Source: a virus
Reading direction: 5' to 3' (one strand)
DNA length: 25,891 nucleotides
Virus record (IMG/VR): IMGVR_UViG_3300044961_000024
Coordinates: 1 to 25,891 of that record
In this document: piece after piece, positions 8,079 through 18,666 of the stretch
How positions within the stretch are numbered: position 1 is the first letter of the stretch
How the letters are laid out: each line of letters opens with the position of its first letter
Notes under the pieces: generated by a model
What the model was told of the DNA's origin: nothing
What the model saw: only the letters and a program-made list of their open reading frames with translations
Database searches by the model: none
Position numbers and translations under genes: made by a program

Positions 8079-9409
8079 AGACCCAGGAAGACTCCGCGCT
8101 GCGTTCGTTCATGCGCCGGTTTGCCCGCGCGTCACTGATCGCGCCGGTCGATTCTCTCGGCCTGCCTCTGACGGAAGTCATTTCCGGCATGGTCGCCGCG
8201 CACCTCGCGGCCGATGCCAAGGGAGAGGACGCGCACGAGAAGCGGATGAACTGGCACTTCCGGGACGTGCTCGGCACGTACGGCCGGGCGCCCGAGGAAG
8301 GCGCACAAGGGAAACCGTTCCCGTACGCAGGGAACGGCACGGCCATCATCCCGGTGCATGGGGTCCTCCTCAACCGCTGGAACTACGCGGCGCCTTACGC
8401 GACCGGCTACAACGCCATCCGCTCGATGCTCAACGCGGCGCTCGCGGATGCGGACGTGCAGCGCATCGTGCTGGACATCAACTCGCCGGGCGGGCAGGCC
8501 GCGGGCGCGTTCGAACTCGCCGAAGACATTCGCGCGGCTCGCGACGTGAAGCCCATCCGGGCGATCGCCGACAGTTATGCGTTCTCGGCCGCCTACGCCG
8601 TGGCAAGCGCGGCAAGCGACATCGTGGTGACGCCGAGCGGCGAGGTCGGCAGCATCGGCGTGGTCTCGGCGCACATGAACATCGGACCGGCGCTGAAGGA
8701 GTTCGGCATCGAGATCACGTTCATCTACGCCGGCAAGCACAAGGTCGATGGCAACCCGTACGAGGCGCTGTCCGACGATGTGAAGGCCGGCATCCAGGCG
8801 GATGTTGACCGCATCTACGGGGTGTTCACCGCGAGCGTCGCGGCGGGCCGCAAGCGCAAGATGACGGAAGCGGACGCCCGCAAGACCGAGGCTCATTGCT
8901 ACGGCGCGGATGACGCCGTGGCGATCGGCCTCGCGGATCACATCATGCCCGCCTCGGCGGCATTGGCGTCGTTCGAGACGACGAGCACCACCGGGGCGCC
9001 CGCCTCGAATGTCATCGCTTCCAAGGAGAAGGAAGGAACCACCATGACCGACGAGAACAAGGCTCGCGAGGAGGATCGTGCGCGCATCTCCGCGATCCTC
9101 GACCACGACGAGGCGAAGGGACGCGAGTCCCTGGCCCGGCATCTCGCGCTCAAGACGGATATGTCCGTCGAGATCGCCGTCGAGGCGCTGAAGGCGGCGC
9201 CCAAGGCGACTGCCGCTTCGGCGGTCAGCGCGCTCGATCGCGCCATGGACCGCATCGAGCACCCCGAAGTCGGCGCCGATGCCGGCCAGGGCGACAAGAA
9301 GGCGGACGACGACTCGCCGAAGGCCCGCGCCGATCGCATCTGGTCGTCCTTCCAGGCGGCCGGCGGTGCGGCGCTGGCCGTGCCCTCCAAGGCGTCGAAG
9401 GCGCATTGA
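8075..9409 (+). CDS. Prohead protease, S49 (SppA/ClpP-like) family, lambda C-like, with C-terminal scaffold region
   Basis: A 444-residue serine protease that matures the prohead, close to lambda gpC (439). The ClpP-crotonase core spans about residues 85-300: NSPGG at 136-140 for the oxyanion region, catalytic Ser171 in SYAFSAAYA, GSIGVVSAH at 192-200, and a catalytic Lys in AGKHKVDGNPY (K223 most likely, K221 nearby). After a linker at about residue 305-320 the C-terminal 121 residues are charged, helical and protease-unrelated, and they begin with an internal ATG with a very good ribosome site (see the nested entry). The organisation is that of lambda C/Nu3. The start overlaps the portal stop (ATGA). 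Confidence 0.93.
   Translation: MKTQEDSALRSFMRRFARASLIAPVDSLGLPLTEVISGMVAAHLAADAKGEDAHEKRMNWHFRDVLGTYGRAPEEGAQGKPFPYAGNGTAIIPVHGVLLNRWNYAAPYATGYNAIRSMLNAALADADVQRIVLDINSPGGQAAGAFELAEDIRAARDVKPIRAIADSYAFSAAYAVASAASDIVVTPSGEVGSIGVVSAHMNIGPALKEFGIEITFIYAGKHKVDGNPYEALSDDVKAGIQADVDRIYGVFTASVAAGRKRKMTEADARKTEAHCYGADDAVAIGLADHIMPASAALASFETTSTTGAPASNVIASKEKEGTTMTDENKAREEDRARISAILDHDEAKGRESLARHLALKTDMSVEIAVEALKAAPKATAASAVSALDRAMDRIEHPEVGADAGQGDKKADDDSPKARADRIWSSFQAAGGAALAVPSKASKAH
9044..9409 (+). CDS. Putative nested scaffold protein (Nu3-like), internal in-frame start within the protease gene
   Basis: The ATG at 9044 is codon 324 of the protease gene and in the same frame. Just upstream lies AAGGAGAAGGAAGG (9023-9036), a stronger ribosome site than most true starts in this window. 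Translation from here gives 121 residues: an acidic, helix-prone chain starting MTDENKAREEDRARISAI, then an Ala/Lys/Asp-rich linker and a basic C-terminus ending PSKASKAH. Lambda makes its scaffold Nu3 exactly this way, from the 3' part of gene C, and C-terminal basic helices of scaffolds bind the capsid protein. No other scaffold candidate lies between portal and capsid. Expression is inferred, not proven. Confidence 0.72.
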   Translation: MTDENKAREEDRARISAILDHDEAKGRESLARHLALKTDMSVEIAVEALKAAPKATAASAVSALDRAMDRIEHPEVGADAGQGDKKADDDSPKARADRIWSSFQAAGGAALAVPSKASKAH

Positions 9410-12565: not shown

Positions 12566-13084
12566 ATGCCGGTCCCTCGTCAACTCGACATCCTGAAGGC
12601 GCTCACCGAGCACCTTGAAGGCATCAGCGTCGTCGGCGGGTATTCACACGACCTCGCCGGCCGGGTATTCCGTGGGCGCATGGTGTTCGGGGACGAGGTT
12701 CCGCTTCCGTGCGTGTCGATCCTCGAAGCCCCCCGCCCTGATGAGCGCCCGCGCGCAGGCGGGCACGAGAATGCGTTTCGCGCCGAAGATTGGGTCCTGC
12801 TCGTGCAAGGATGGGTCGAGGACGACGCGCACAATCCGACCGACCCGGCCTACATGCTCAAGGCCGACGTCGAGTCGCGCCTGTCGCAAATCGTGGCGAT
12901 CAACGAGCAGAACGGGTTGCCCCGTTATCCCTCCGCATTCCGCCTCGGCGGGCGGATCAACGGGGCCACGATCGGCCCCGGAGTGGTGCGTCCTCCGCAG
13001 GATCGCATTTCGGCCAAGGCGTTTTTCTACATCCCGCTTGTGCTCAACGTCGCGCTCACGCCGACCGCGCCGTTCGTGGCATAG
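12566..13084 (+). CDS. Putative tail terminator protein (gpU-like position)
   Basis: A 172-residue protein starting MPVPRQLDILKALTEHLEGI. The frame is open further upstream, but the ATG at 12566, 2 nt after the previous stop and behind GGGAAGG, is the natural start. N-terminal helix then alternating strands (VPLPCVSILEAP, DWVLLVQGWVED), a helix (YMLKADVESRLSQIV) and a final strand (AFFYIPLVLNVALT) agree with the alpha/beta fold of tail terminators, which cap the tube and set its final length. The position between Z-like and tube genes fits lambda U. The call is by position and secondary-structure pattern only. Confidence 0.65.
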   Translation: MPVPRQLDILKALTEHLEGISVVGGYSHDLAGRVFRGRMVFGDEVPLPCVSILEAPRPDERPRAGGHENAFRAEDWVLLVQGWVEDDAHNPTDPAYMLKADVESRLSQIVAINEQNGLPRYPSAFRLGGRINGATIGPGVVRPPQDRISAKAFFYIPLVLNVALTPTAPFVA

Positions 13085-13110
13085 CAACTCGGCAGCGAAG
13101 GAGACCGACC

Positions 13111-13887
13111 ATGCCGACTTTCTCGAACAACCTCGTCCTCGGGCGCGGGCGGCTGTTTTTCGGCCGCTTCCCGTCCGGGACGCTCTCGGCCAAGGGCATG
13201 AAGTATTTCGGCAACACGCCCGCCGTGAACCTCAACGTCACCGAGGAGGTCCTCGAACACTTCGACAGCGACTCCGGTCTGAAGATCAAGGACCGCGTGG
13301 TGACGTTGAGCCAGGAGATCGCGGGCAGTTTCCAGACGGACAACATCAGCCCGAACAATCTGGCGCTGTTCTTCGCGGCGGAGGAGAACACGGTCGCGCA
13401 GACGTCCGGGACCAACATCGTCGAGACGTTCTCCGGGGTCGAGGAGGACGTGTATATCCAACTCGGCATCACGCCGACGCGCCCGCAAGGCCATCGCGGC
13501 ATCACGACCGTCGATGCCGTGACGAACGGCGCGACGACGCTGGTCGCCGGCGTCGACTACGAGGTCGATCTGGAAAACGGCCGCATCTGGCTGCCGAAGG
13601 AATCGACCCTGTTCGCGGCGAATGACACGCTCGTCGTCCAGTACGACGTGCCGAACCTCAACTACCAGCGCATCGCCGACCTCAACGAGACGGTCTACGG
13701 CCGCCTCGAATACGTGTCGGACAACGCGGTCGGTTCAAACTTCAACTACGTCTGGCCGTACGTGAAGTTGACGGCGGACGGCGACCTCGCGCTCAAGGGC
13801 GACGAGTGGCAGACCATGAACTTCAACTTCGAGGTGCTGCAACTCAACTCCACGACGCCTCGGCAGATCATCATTCCGCGCGAGTGA
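13111..13887 (+). CDS. Major tail tube protein
   Basis: A 258-residue protein starting MPTFSNNLVLGRGRLFFGRF at 13111 behind GAAGGAGA. It has the beta-rich character of siphophage tube proteins: a conserved-looking N-terminal part (KGMKYFGNTPAVNLNVTEEV, ETFSGV after it), a middle strand-loop module (TTLVAGVDYEVDLENGRIWL) that could be an inserted surface domain, and a C-terminus with YVSDNAVGSNFNYVWPYVKL and MNFNFEVLQL. Rings of this protein form the tube around the tape measure. It stands just before the chaperone genes, as lambda V does. A 13-bp hairpin follows the gene. Confidence 0.85.
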   Translation: MPTFSNNLVLGRGRLFFGRFPSGTLSAKGMKYFGNTPAVNLNVTEEVLEHFDSDSGLKIKDRVVTLSQEIAGSFQTDNISPNNLALFFAAEENTVAQTSGTNIVETFSGVEEDVYIQLGITPTRPQGHRGITTVDAVTNGATTLVAGVDYEVDLENGRIWLPKESTLFAANDTLVVQYDVPNLNYQRIADLNETVYGRLEYVSDNAVGSNFNYVWPYVKLTADGDLALKGDEWQTMNFNFEVLQLNSTTPRQIIIPRE

Positions 13888-13959: not shown

Positions 13960-14430
13960 ATGGCACTTCGGGACTACAAACCGCGCCAAGACTACATCAC
14001 GGTCAACGATGAGACCGTTGCGGTTCGAGGGCTCACGGTCGAGGACATCGCCATCCTCATCGACGCCTACAAGGACCCGATCGTCGAACTCTACGCGATC
14101 TTCGAGGGGTCGCGCAGAGCGAAAGACGCCGAGGGCGACGACGCGCTTCAGGCCCGGCTCGATCGCATCATCGTGGAAAGCGTCCAGCGCGCGCCGCATC
14201 TCGTCGGTGCGATCATCGCGCTTGCCGCAGATGAACCGGACGCATCCGAGCAGGCGAAGTCACTTCCGTTCACCGTGCAAGTGGACGCGCTGGTGAAGAT
14301 TTTCACCCTCACCTTCTCGGATGTGGGCGGCTTGGGAAACTTCTTGGCGGTGCTGCAAGGCGCAATCGCCGGAGTGATCGTCCCGCTCCGCCGCGACCCG
14401 GCCGCACCGCCAAGCCCCTCAATCCAGTAG
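13960..14430 (+). CDS. Tail assembly chaperone, gpG-like (zero-frame product)
   Basis: A 156-residue protein between tube and tape measure, where tailed phages carry their assembly chaperones. N-terminal residues form short strands (DYITVNDETVAVRGLTVED), then helices (IAILIDAYKDPIVELYAIF, LDRIIVESVQRAPHL, ALVKIFTLTF). The ATG at 13960 has GGAAGGGAA upstream. Codons 126-127 (GGA AAC) form the slippery heptamer GGGAAAC, after which part of the ribosomes would leave for the -1 frame; without a shift translation ends at TAG 14428-14430 with a Pro-rich tail. The chaperone coats the tape measure before tube polymerisation. The sequence is not obviously similar to lambda G; the call rests on position, size and the frameshift. 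Confidence 0.8.
   Translation: MALRDYKPRQDYITVNDETVAVRGLTVEDIAILIDAYKDPIVELYAIFEGSRRAKDAEGDDALQARLDRIIVESVQRAPHLVGAIIALAADEPDASEQAKSLPFTVQVDALVKIFTLTFSDVGGLGNFLAVLQGAIAGVIVPLRRDPAAPPSPSIQ
14256..14266. repeat. Palindrome GAAGTSACTTC, site 3
   Basis: GAAGTCACTTC followed by CG, inside the chaperone G gene, 68 bp before the frameshift site. Confidence 0.5.
14334..14340 (+). promoter_or_regulatory. -1 programmed ribosomal frameshift site GGGAAAC
   Basis: The heptamer fits X XXY YYZ in the zero frame (G GGA AAC). Lambda G/GT uses GGGAAAG. The -1 frame is then open without stop to 14663. A possible stem (14346-14351 with 14365-14370, one G-U pair) starts 5 nt downstream, a usual spacing for a stimulator. 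Confidence 0.8.
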
Positions 14431-14663
14431 AAGCCTTCTTCGTCCAACTGCGGCGCGATCTTAGCCTGCTCTTGGAGCATGGTCATCACGGCGCTTCCGC
14501 TTACACGGTCGGGCGGCTATGGGTGGAGGCGAGACTGGTGCGGGACCGGATTCGGCACCGGCTCGCTGACGAAGCCACGATGCTTCACGCGGTCGTCGTC
14601 GGCGCCATGTCCGATCCCAAGCACCTCAAGCGTTTCCTAGAGGACTTGGAAGATGGCGATTGA
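14340..14663 (+). CDS. Tail assembly chaperone, T-like part made by -1 frameshift (GT-type fusion)
   Basis: This frame has no good start of its own (only a TTG at 14472), but it is open from the slippery site to TGA 14661-14663. Fused after residue 127 of the upstream chaperone it gives about 234 residues, a G/GT arrangement as in lambda. The first 25 residues are Arg/Pro-rich; then comes a helical part (NPVEAFFVQLRRDLSLLLEH, YTVGRLWVEARLVRDRIRH, LKRFLEDLEDGD). In the GT fusion the T part recruits tube subunits while G holds the tape measure. The stop overlaps the tape-measure start (14653), as expected for coupled expression. That the fusion is made is inferred from the sequence. Confidence 0.75.
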   Translation, partial: LLGGAARRNRRSDRPAPPRPGRTAKPLNPVEAFFVQLRRDLSLLLEHGHHGASAYTVGRLWVEARLVRDRIRHRLADEATMLHAVVVGAMSDPKHLKRFLEDLEDGD

Positions 14664-17600
14664 GCGCCGGGACATCGACTTCGCGCTTCGCGCCAAGGAC
14701 ATGTCAACCGCCACGTTCCGTGACGTCCGCAAGGCCGTCGCGGACCTGGGCCGTGCGCTCGAAGCGCAGGCGGCAGGCATCCGGTCCGGTGACACCGCGC
14801 TCAGCGAACTCATCAACACATACAAGCAACTCGAACTCGCGGCCAAGGCGTTCTCGTCTCAGCAAGGGCTCATCGACAGATTTCGTGCGCAAACGGAGTC
14901 CTTGTCGCGCTACGAAGCCCGCGCGGCTGAGGCGCGCAAGAAGGCCGACGAGTTCGCCGCGGCGCTGGCCAACAAGGAGAAAGTCTCGCTTCGTGCGCAG
15001 GCGCGGCTCGACGCGCTCAACCGCATCGCCGAGCGCGCGGCGAAGGCGTTCGCAGATCAAAGTGAAAAGGTCTCTCGGTCCCGCGAGGCGCTACAGAGAG
15101 CCGAGATCGACGTTCGTGATCTCGACGGCGCTTCGAAGTCACTTCTGACGAGCAGCCAGCAACTCGGTGCGGCGATCAACACGGCCAAGACGCTGATCTC
15201 GGGCTACAGCCAGGAGGTCCGGCGCGGTCGCGAGGAGGAGAAGCAGGCCGCCGCGGAGCAGCGCCGCCGAGCCGAAGTGCTCGACCGATTCAACGCGGCG
15301 GTCAAGGAAAGGTCTCGCGTCATCGCGGCGGTGCGCGCGGCAGAGACCGCCGCGGCACGCGAGGAAGCCGAGGCCGCCAAGAAGACCGAACAGCAGACCC
15401 GCGCGTACCAGGAGCAGGTTGCCGCGGTCGATCGCCTGCTGGCCTCCTACGGACGGCTGAGCGCCGCCAACGTTCAACTCGCGCGCACGCGGGCACGAGA
15501 GGGCGGCGGAGCCGAGGCGGCCGTCCTGGGTGCCCGCGGGCAGCCGCAAGCACTCACTCTCACCGACATCACTCAGGCCGTCCGGCTTCAAGCCGTGGCG
15601 GTGCAGGAAACGCTCGGCAAGCCAGTACAGAACTACCTCGGGCTCCTCGAAGACCTTGAACGGTCCCTCCGGCGCGTGCAGGCGATCGCCAAACAGGTTG
15701 ACGGCTATCAAGCGCAGCGCGCGGCGGTGCAGGCGTCGCTCACTACGTACCAGCAGGCACGTGCGAACCTGAAGGCACTCAACGACGAGCAGCGCCGAAA
15801 CCCCTCCGCGGAGAACGCTGCCGCCGTCCGCGCGGCGCTGCCGGCGTACGAGCGGGCCAGGGCGGCGTTCATCGAGCAGTTGCAGGCGTTGCGTGTGCTG
15901 CGGGAAGAGCTCCGGCAGTCCGGTATCGGCACACGAGATTTCGGCGAGACGCAGCGGCGCCTCGTGGAGATCACGGCGCAAGCCAGCCGGTCGATCCGCG
16001 ACCTGACGGCGAATTATGACAAGTTCGGCGGGTCTGCGCGCTCTGGTCCGGCAGGATTCCTCGGACTCAGGCCGTACGAACTTCAGAACCTCTCGTTCCA
16101 GATCAACGACATCTTCACGCAACTTGCGAGCGGCGCGTCGTTGATGCAGACGCTTGCGCAGCAGGCAGGCCAGATTGCTCAGATTCAACCGATCTGGCAA
16201 CGCATCGTGGCGTTTGCGCCCGCCTTCGTGACTCTCGGCGCGGCGATCGGCGTAACGGTCGCGGCGCTTAGTCGATTGAACCAGGCGGCCGCGTCAACTC
16301 GTAATTTTGCTGCACAAGCGCAGATTCGAGGGTTGACCGACCTGTCGGTGACTCCGGCGCAACTTACCGCCATTGTGCGCGAGATCGAGAAAATTGGCCC
16401 GTCGTTCAACGAGGCACGAACCGCAGTCCAAGCCTTTTTCAACTCCGGCGTCTCCACTTCGCTGCTTCGCGACGCAACTGAGATCGCGGTTCGGTTTGCC
16501 AGAATCACCGGCCGCGATATACCGGACGCAACACAACTCCTTATCCGCGGGCTGACCGAAGGACGAGAAGGATTCAAGGCGCTTCTCGACGCGAACATAG
16601 GATTCAGCGAGTCCACTCGTCGCACGATCACGTCTTTGCTCGATCAAGGGCAAGTCTTGTCCGCGCAGAACGTCATCATCGCCGCGCTGCGAGACACGGT
16701 TCGAGACGCAGACGAGCGGGGTCTTAGCCCGTTTCGCGCCGCCGCCATCGCGGTGCGAAACGCATGGCTAGAAGTGCTCGATGAACTAGGTAAAACCGGC
16801 ATCGTTGCGACGCTCAGCAACGCACTCACCACTCTTGCGGAGCGCGGTCGCCAACTCGCGTCGGTCATGCGCCTGCTCCGAGGCGAAGTTGCCGCGATTG
16901 AAGGCGGCGAACCCCCTGATCCGCGCCAAGTCACCGCCGCGCAATTGCAACGTGCGCAAGAGCGACTTCAAACGCTGGAACGGCGAGTCGAAGAAGGGTC
17001 GAGCATATTCCGTTTCGGAAGTGCGGCCCAAGTCGAGGAGGCACGCCGCAATATCCCGCTCGTTCGAGCAGAGATTGAACGCCTTCGCGCGGCGCAGGAG
17101 AACGCGAATCGTGCTGCGCTCAATGGGCAGCGCATCGCGGCCGAAAGGGGGGCAGAAGCGGCTGACCAACGGCGCTTGCAAGCCCTGCAAGGGCAACTGG
17201 ACACCCTTCAACGGACGGTCCGCGAGCGCGAATTGGAAGGGCGCATCGCAGACAAGAACTTGACACAGGCGCAAAGAGAGGCGGCGGTACGCGAGAGAGA
17301 GCGCCTTCGCCTGCTTGAAAGGGCGCCCGGCGCGCTAGCGACCAACGAAGGGCAAGAACTCCTCAGACGCCAAACGGACGTCGCTCTCAGGGAACTTCGT
17401 GAGCGCATACGGTCGGAAACTGAAAGCGCAAGCAGGGAAGCCGCCGCCGCGGTCCGACGCGACTTTCAGGCGATCGCGCAAGACATCCAGAACACCCTCC
17501 GCATTCGCGACGATACTGTCCGCGCGATCCAAGAGGACGTGGCGGCAGGCGCGCTCTCTCCGGCGGAAGCGATCGCACGTATCGGACAGGCCGCCGAGCA

Positions 17601-18666
17601 GACCCGTCCGGCGCTTCAACGGCTGCGCGACGAGGCGCAGAGGTTCCTCGATCAAGGTCGCGGCCGGGACGTGGTACGCGACGCAGCCATTCAGCGGGTC
17701 ATCGCGCAGGCTGACCGCGGTCTCGCCGGAACGGCCGGCGCTCGGGCCGGAACCAACGCGATCCTTCAGCAGTCGCGGCGGGAGATTGAGCAGCAGTTCC
17801 AAGAGCGGCAGAACTTCATCCAGACGCAGGCGGCTCTTGAACAGCAAGGACTTATCACACGCGCCGAGAGTGAGCGGCAGATCGTCGCCCTTTACGGCGA
17901 GACGCGCGAGGCGCTGCAAGCCAACATTGACGCCTATGCCGAGGCGAACCGCGTCGCCGCGGAGAATGGCACGATCACGCAGGCCGCGGCCCGCGGCAAC
18001 GCCGCGCAAATCGAACTGTGGCGCGCGCAACTCGAACGCATCAACCCTGAGTGGGCGAGGCTAAAGCAAGGCATCGAGAACACGTTCACGCAGGCAGGCG
18101 TGTCGTTCTTCGATTCCGTCGCCAAGGCACTAGGCGAACTGGCGGCCGGCGTCATCACGCTCGAAGAAGCGTGGAAAGCCGCCGGACGCGCGGCGCTTCA
18201 GTTCTTCGCAGACGTGTTGAAGGGTATCGCTCAGGTCATCCTTAAGGAACAGGTACTTCAGGCCGTTCGGCTCATCACCCGGTCGATCAGCGCAGGCGTG
18301 GCGCACACAGGCGGCACGGTGGGTTCGCCGGGGGGTGTCCGCCGGTCGGTCAACTCTGGCATCTTCGCAGCCGCGCCACGGATGCACAACGGCGGCATCG
18401 TCGGCGGTCTGCGCCGCGACGAGCGGGCTGCGATCCTGCAAACCGGCGAGGAAGTCCTGGCTCGCGATGATCCGCGGAACATTCTCAACCGCAACAAGAC
18501 TTATGGGCCGGCGACGCCGGGTGGTGATGGAATGCCGATCCGTAACATCCTGGCCATCGGGGACGAGGAGATCGCCAACGCGCTCAACTCCTCGGCCGGA
18601 GAGCGCGTGCTGTTCAACCTGTTGCGACGGAACGCACCGACCGTGCGCGCCATCGTGCGAGGTTAA
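14653..18666 (+). CDS. Tail length tape measure protein
   Basis: A 1337-residue tape measure. Residues 1-450 are long, Ala/Glu/Arg/Gln-rich coiled coil; about 467-515 is the recognisable motif LGLRPYELQNLSFQINDIF followed by QLASGASLMQTLAQQAGQ, common in prophage tape measures; about 518-540 is a hydrophobic stretch (FAPAFVTLGAAIGVTVAAL) that may form a membrane helix during DNA delivery; 750-1150 is coiled coil again; the C-terminus carries HNGGIVGG and AILQTGEEVLARDDPRN, a usual tape-measure ending for binding the tail tip. It sets tail length and is ejected before DNA. The start is the ATG at 14653, overlapping the chaperone T frame. Confidence 0.95.
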   Translation: MAIERRDIDFALRAKDMSTATFRDVRKAVADLGRALEAQAAGIRSGDTALSELINTYKQLELAAKAFSSQQGLIDRFRAQTESLSRYEARAAEARKKADEFAAALANKEKVSLRAQARLDALNRIAERAAKAFADQSEKVSRSREALQRAEIDVRDLDGASKSLLTSSQQLGAAINTAKTLISGYSQEVRRGREEEKQAAAEQRRRAEVLDRFNAAVKERSRVIAAVRAAETAAAREEAEAAKKTEQQTRAYQEQVAAVDRLLASYGRLSAANVQLARTRAREGGGAEAAVLGARGQPQALTLTDITQAVRLQAVAVQETLGKPVQNYLGLLEDLERSLRRVQAIAKQVDGYQAQRAAVQASLTTYQQARANLKALNDEQRRNPSAENAAAVRAALPAYERARAAFIEQLQALRVLREELRQSGIGTRDFGETQRRLVEITAQASRSIRDLTANYDKFGGSARSGPAGFLGLRPYELQNLSFQINDIFTQLASGASLMQTLAQQAGQIAQIQPIWQRIVAFAPAFVTLGAAIGVTVAALSRLNQAAASTRNFAAQAQIRGLTDLSVTPAQLTAIVREIEKIGPSFNEARTAVQAFFNSGVSTSLLRDATEIAVRFARITGRDIPDATQLLIRGLTEGREGFKALLDANIGFSESTRRTITSLLDQGQVLSAQNVIIAALRDTVRDADERGLSPFRAAAIAVRNAWLEVLDELGKTGIVATLSNALTTLAERGRQLASVMRLLRGEVAAIEGGEPPDPRQVTAAQLQRAQERLQTLERRVEEGSSIFRFGSAAQVEEARRNIPLVRAEIERLRAAQENANRAALNGQRIAAERGAEAADQRRLQALQGQLDTLQRTVRERELEGRIADKNLTQAQREAAVRERERLRLLERAPGALATNEGQELLRRQTDVALRELRERIRSETESASREAAAAVRRDFQAIAQDIQNTLRIRDDTVRAIQEDVAAGALSPAEAIARIGQAAEQTRPALQRLRDEAQRFLDQGRGRDVVRDAAIQRVIAQADRGLAGTAGARAGTNAILQQSRREIEQQFQERQNFIQTQAALEQQGLITRAESERQIVALYGETREALQANIDAYAEANRVAAENGTITQAAARGNAAQIELWRAQLERINPEWARLKQGIENTFTQAGVSFFDSVAKALGELAAGVITLEEAWKAAGRAALQFFADVLKGIAQVILKEQVLQAVRLITRSISAGVAHTGGTVGSPGGVRRSVNSGIFAAAPRMHNGGIVGGLRRDERAAILQTGEEVLARDDPRNILNRNKTYGPATPGGDGMPIRNILAIGDEEIANALNSSAGERVLFNLLRRNAPTVRAIVRG
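15135..15145. repeat. Palindrome GAAGTSACTTC, site 4
   Basis: GAAGTCACTTC followed by TG, inside the tape-measure gene. Confidence 0.5.

Follow-up and report, generated by a model that had tools for sequence, protein, structure and literature searches.

A Casjensviridae-like siphophage, represented here by a virus record of 25,891 bases (hereafter "the window", meaning the whole stretch of DNA analysed), very probably uses a programmed −1 ribosomal frameshift to translate its pre-tape-measure gene. The making of two protein versions through a −1 ribosome slip has long been known in phages, and we regard the present finding as both correct and ordinary: the two frames are already joined in homologous GenBank/RefSeq records and GGGAAAC has already been predicted in print to be a slip site of tail-chaperone genes, so that frameshifts of this type are already known. 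The less expected detail is the presence of a strong RNA hairpin right after a weak slip site. Together, these data support the recoding predicted for this uncultured phage, whose annotation would be corrected to hold one 234-residue GT protein besides the 156-residue G protein.

Reading frames and slip site in the window

The features of the locus are listed below, each with its coordinates in the window, its strand and the evidence for it.

12790..13887, + strand: major tail (tube) protein, the upstream neighbour of G (phrog_807, E 2e-55; NF052337 phage tail tube, E 1e-56)
13960..14430, + strand: G, 156-residue pre-tape-measure protein / tail assembly chaperone, the zero-frame product (PF23789, phrog_5260, phrog_11703, predicted fold)
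14334..14340, + strand: slippery heptamer G_GGA_AAC (zero-frame slippery phase; homologous column canonical in 78/92 representatives)
14340..14663, + strand: T, the −1 frame extension of 107 residues, with a linker (1–28) and then a helical domain (phrog_11703, phrog_9221, tblastn relatives, model)
13960..14663, + strand: GT, the predicted 234-residue fusion from a −1 shift (computed; joined coding sequence annotated in relatives)
14343..14353, + strand: 5′ arm of the predicted stimulatory hairpin, with its core at 14346–14353 after a 5-nt spacer (RNA fold; compensatory pairs in one relative, L048)
14404..14414, + strand: 3′ arm of the predicted stimulatory hairpin (pairs with 14343–14353)
14653..18666, + strand: tape measure protein, the downstream neighbour (phrog_2335, E 5e-61; PF06791 TMP_2, E 1e-17)

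The original prediction had placed GGGAAAC in the zero frame near the end of the chaperone gene and had described the −1 frame as open up to the tape-measure start, and both statements were borne out. The heptamer (14334–14340) is read as TTG GGA AAC in the open reading frame (ORF) 13960–14430, i.e., in the slippery phase X_XXY_YYZ, and the −1 frame stays open between 14235 and a stop whose last base is 14663, where it overlaps the tape-measure ATG (14653) by 11 nt. A −1 shift after AAC computes to 127 + 107 = 234 residues with the −1 part beginning LLGG, which agrees with the predicted fusion of about 234 residues beside the 156-residue G and with the LLGG expected after residue 127. The + strand of the 25.9-kb window contains five heptamers of the form XXX(AAA/TTT)N, four of them within listed ORFs, and among those four the 14334 site is the only one in slippery phase; the other GGGAAAC in the window, at 8309, is in phase 0. 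Given the codon use of the window (GGA for 12% of Gly, AAC for 85% of Asn, TTG plus CTG for 41% of Leu), the chance that Leu-Gly-Asn would be spelled TTG/CTG-GGA-AAC is about 0.04. The heptamer is present in all four representatives of the window's clade (the window, L027, L048 and L049; support 100/99), and the window and L027 are identical over the heptamer and the next 14 nt, though their G and T are 62% identical. Directly upstream of the heptamer, a Shine-Dalgarno-like GGCGG (14326–14330) codes for a Gly-Gly pair that many relatives keep.

Mechanistically, most ribosomes would terminate at the G stop (14430), releasing the 156-residue chaperone, while a minority would be held up on G_GGA_AAC by the hairpin that begins about 5 nt further on, move back by one base and resume translation in the −1 frame, which would yield a 234-residue GT made up of 127 zero-frame residues, a short linker and the helical T domain. 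We infer from the features of the locus that such slippage happens and, further, the ratio of the two products and the functions of G and GT. By analogy to lambda, as described in a published review, G may bind the tape measure protein and T may bring the tail-tube protein, with both absent from the virion.

Family of G and T and comparison with known systems

The gene order at the locus is tail tube, G, T and tape measure, and both G and T had clear relatives in phage protein families. G matched the Pre_tape_measure family PF23789 (E 2.3e-38, 131.7 bits against a curated cut-off of 27) and phrog_5260 (E 3e-34), while T matched phrog_9221 (E 1.1e-10) and had relatives, detected by tblastn, in 148 phage records. 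The 232-position profile phrog_11703 matched G over positions 1–129 and the −1 frame over positions 141–232 (E 5.6e-15); since this profile spans both G and T, the family itself includes the fused product. Models of the two proteins (pLDDT 84.2 for G and 82.9 for T) were consistent with these matches in that the G model resembles two predicted chaperones, a Serratia phage JS26 tail assembly chaperone (E 1e-9) and the G protein of Xylella phage Sano (E 8e-8), and the best match of the T model likewise came from Serratia phage JS26. In the AlphaFold model of T, residues 1–28 form a linker modelled with low to moderate confidence, and confident helices follow, as expected if T is made solely as a fusion, and the stretch shared by G and T (30 codons) is near the length of this linker. 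Judging from these profile and model matches, G and T correspond to the two pre-tape-measure frames found in Casjensviridae-like phages. When major head proteins were compared, the closest named phages were AH2, Erythrobacter phages R16L/R22L, SS2019XI and BcepNazgul, and the identity to them (44–48%) marks the record, on the basis of this protein, as Casjensviridae-like yet distant from all of these phages. In a Foldseek search of the G model against the PDB, there was no match (best E 2.0). Two other assignments of G were rejected: a comparison of its profile with solved structures returned TAL-effector repeat proteins, with no stretch passing alone, plus weak hits, all of which we judged to be due to chance, and NCBIfam matches to beta-lactamase were dismissed as far below the cut-offs.

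The heptamer of lambda G/GT is GGGAAAG as compared with GGGAAAC in the window, and the profile and Foldseek searches brought out no clear kinship between G and proteins of the lambda type, giving weak matches at best (phrog_1442 tail assembly chaperone, E 0.12; N15 GT by Foldseek, E 0.2). The two systems are alike in gene order and, going by the prediction for the window, in a −1 shift towards the 3′ end of G and a fusion made as the minority product (PMC5009743). According to the available text of the same paper, low-level −1 frameshifting in g-t genes is widely conserved among long-tailed phages, and the g-t site of the haloarchaeal virus HCTV-1 is G_GGA_AAC (PMC5009743); HCTV-1 is similar to the window by its heptamer, rather than by aligned sequences, and differs from it in having an archaeal host. 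Predicted slip sites have also been given, in the parts of these reports available to us, as GGGAAAC in KL1 and AAAAAAG in AH2, both with possible downstream stem-loops (PMC3483164), and as GGGAAAC in the Colossus chaperone gene (PMC3556154). Burkholderia phage KL1 (gp18/gp19) and Caulobacter phage Colossus share GGGAAAC with the window in corresponding genes, a likeness drawn from the site and not from protein alignment. BcepNazgul, Chi and AH2 resemble the window in protein family, in the place before the tape measure gene, in the −1 relation and in the joined coding sequence, but they differ from its combination of GGGAAAC and a long hairpin, as AH2 and Chi have AAAAAAG and BcepNazgul has CCCAAAA at the same place.

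Conservation of the predicted frameshift site and rival readings

We fetched 22 named-phage loci, and a script found an in-phase heptamer with the −1 frame reaching the tape-measure start in 20 of them; S-ESS1, which was read by eye, has A_AAA_AAG, and Ruegeria phage V18 has GTG GAA AAG only. A joined coding sequence is annotated in 7 of the 22 (BcepNazgul, Redjac, Chi, Saba, Smarc5, AH2 and Enc34). In S-ESS1 (KY249644; L016), the tail protein ends at locus position 1153 and the tape measure has a late start at 2577, and both the G and T frames are present in this interval (1153–2577) with no gene annotated. With IMG/VR loci added, the full set came to 194 loci, a count that takes in the window's locus and in which several contigs appear more than once. 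G was found in all 194 and T in 191, the loci lacking T being L170, L171 and L082, the last of which ends 2 nt past the G stop. Of the 191 T frames, 190 are −1 relative to G, the exception being a locus with an early G stop (L175).

Clustering of 190 loci at 90% nucleotide identity gave 92 representatives, in which we counted as canonical those heptamers with Y being A or T, in phase and inside the G/T overlap. Such a heptamer occurs in 87 of the 92, as compared with 29/92 and 7/92 for heptamers in the other two phases of the overlap and 8/92 for slippery-phase heptamers in upstream G, and in 78 representatives it sits at one alignment column, which includes that of the window. Counting one site each, the classes were AAAAAAG (43), AAAAAAA (13), GGGAAAC (9), CCCAAAA (7), GGGAAAA (6) and five others (3 or fewer each). 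The gene order, the family matches of both halves, the −1 relation (190/191 loci) and the in-phase heptamers (87/92) fit a G/GT-type programmed −1 frameshift, which is the reading that the original prediction had offered. That prediction had named loss of the heptamer from relatives with both frames as the observation that would count against it, and we found the heptamer kept, with exceptions in 5 of 92: L017 (GGAAAAG), L029 and L034 (CGA AAG), L168 (GGAAAAA) and L095 (none). Four of these five retain just an A-site A run, and L095 is without any. In L029 (~2860), L034 (~2668) and L017 (~1444), CGA AAG or GAA AAG replaces the heptamer while the A-site A_AAG run remains, and these are possibly single-tRNA (tetramer) slip sites. 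Single-protein scans of viral contigs with G and with the tape-measure start returned nothing but a near-identical contig (L001/L025; L001 is IMG/VR contig 3300045902_000033), whose copy of the locus differs from the window at 3 of 6468 bases, all outside the frameshift region. No prophage copy was seen in genome contigs scanned with a near-clade alignment (337 pattern matches, no relative).

The absence of a usable start for T bears most directly on whether T could be a separate gene, translated by coupling from its own start inside the overlap. Some records do annotate a short separate ORF (e.g., KPN U2874 and phiAxp-2), and 5 of the 74 representatives with a recognised T motif (a set that excludes 13 more with the heptamer but not the motif pattern) have a start and a Shine-Dalgarno-like stretch before this conserved motif. 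However, 54 of the 74, the window among them, have no ATG/GTG/TTG before the motif and 70 have no ATG, and the heptamer is conserved in phase. In the window's own −1 frame, the stretch from the heptamer to the conserved R...(S).(L)...G motif is free of ATG/GTG/TTG, and the first such codon after the heptamer (TTG 14472) lies inside the conserved T domain, as the original prediction of a −1 frame without a proper start would have it; we therefore consider a separate T gene very unlikely. Transcriptional slippage, in which the fusion would arise from the polymerase instead of the ribosome, could contribute in the many relatives that carry A runs (A_AAA_AAG/A) at the same column, but the GGGAAAC of the window has no homopolymer longer than 3 bases, so the run needed for slippage is absent there and this origin of the fusion seems to us scarcely credible. 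If a real mutation, or an error in sequencing or assembly, had split one gene in two, a single genome would look the same, as only one base need be lost or gained, and L175 has T in a different frame in addition to its early G stop. This locus is from an IMG/VR copy of a 55,391-base phage record whose protein is 94% identical to that of Chi, and its frame anomaly is probably a sequencing indel in the record. Against a broken gene in the window, the arrangement recurs in 190 of 191 loci, records of cultured phages included, and the near-identical contig L001 has no differences here, which leaves such breakage exceedingly improbable. A ribosomal frameshift at the conserved heptamer thus stays the preferred reading.

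The downstream hairpin and its relation to heptamer class

The best fold downstream of the heptamer is an 11-bp stem (14343–14353/14404–14414) with an 8-bp core after the 5-nt spacer TTCTT. A 6-bp stem beginning 5 nt downstream had been noted as possible, and the stem and its spacer held up while its size had been understated. The 80-nt RNA fold reached −42.6 kcal/mol (z −4.9 from 60 shuffles), a stability that 54 of 8604 80-nt stretches in the window equal or exceed; the 100-nt fold gave z −3.45 (2 of 200 shuffles as good), and the 60-nt downstream fold was ordinary (z −0.30). In L027/L028, the 5′ arm is unchanged and the 3′ arm is altered by G-U/G-C changes. In L048, the arms GGCGUCGC/GCGACGCC, compared with GGCGGUGC/GCACCGCC in the window, show two double substitutions within the 8-bp core that leave the pairing intact, and L049 builds another 8-bp stem, also beginning at +6, whose total fold energy is ordinary. 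As judged in silico from few sequences, a hairpin a few nucleotides past the heptamer is kept by covariation, and it would be expected to stimulate slippage.

We next compared heptamer classes using a helix criterion that was chosen after the window's hairpin was known (a stem of 7 bp or longer, counting G-U pairs, that begins between +4 and +9 and lies within 80 nt). A helix was present in 9/9 GGGAAAC representatives (expected 1.95 from shuffles and 2.05 from own-locus controls) versus 11/43 AAAAAAG representatives (Fisher p 4.6e-5). Pooled counts were 12/13 for A_AAC sites versus 13/46 for A_AAG sites (p 4.5e-5), and 15/26 for A_AAA sites. Since the tree requires 4 changes for GGGAAAC, with no fewer than 2 of them imposed by well-supported branches, the rows are not independent. 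Without the window's clade, the helix was still found in 5/5 GGGAAAC representatives (p 0.0026 at the same setting). Over 40 settings, the p value of the GGGAAAC-versus-AAAAAAG contrast ranged from 2.5e-5 to 0.074 with the window's clade and from 0.0018 to 1 without it, where most of the 8- and 9-bp Watson-Crick-only settings were not significant. The GC content of the 80 nt was 0.644 for GGGAAAC and 0.578 for AAAAAAG, and among AAAAAAG sites with GC of at least 0.58 the helix occurred in 5/21. A more general claim, that downstream folds at these sites are unusually stable, failed (all sites versus controls, p 0.063).

The hairpin could also be a mere by-product of dual coding and high GC at a heptamer that is nonetheless used, given that the window has 64% GC, that the region is read in two frames, and that energy-based tests of the GGGAAAC sites were marginal (p 0.039 versus controls; z below −2 in 3/9). 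The helix counts at GGGAAAC sites, well above both expectations, and the compensatory changes within the window's clade argue the other way, and on balance we think a by-product unlikely, although it deserves to be taken seriously. If the hairpin is instead functional, its position may allow it to compensate for a weak heptamer. The available text of one study in E. coli describes G_GGA_AAC as a low-efficiency motif and A_AAA_AAG, G_GGA_AAG and C_CCA_AAG as the best (PMC4066793), and with these efficiencies the direction of the heptamer/hairpin contrast makes sense. A family-wide trade-off can tentatively be proposed, at a little under even chances, in which lineages with the weak GGGAAAC always have a hairpin 4–9 nt downstream, lineages with the strong A_AAA_AAG mostly do without, and selection maintains the G:GT ratio as signal parts are swapped; with 4 changes to GGGAAAC on the tree, such an exchange would have happened more than once. 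We treat the heptamer/hairpin association as a lead and not as a result. A limited literature search, which did not extend to Xu, Hendrix and Duda (2004, 2013, 2014), found no report of this trade-off for tail chaperones in the texts available. In this family, one frameshift signal exists in about 90 divergent natural forms, all of which presumably have to deliver a similar output, and, if the trade-off holds, these would be a ready-made set for studying how ribosomes weigh slip site versus RNA structure.

Elsewhere in the window, the adjoining and overlapping ORFs 9–776 and 649–1794 both match the DNA methyltransferase family phrog_67, which suggests tandem methyltransferase genes at the window start, and the TTG at 649 may be too far upstream as the start of the second ORF.
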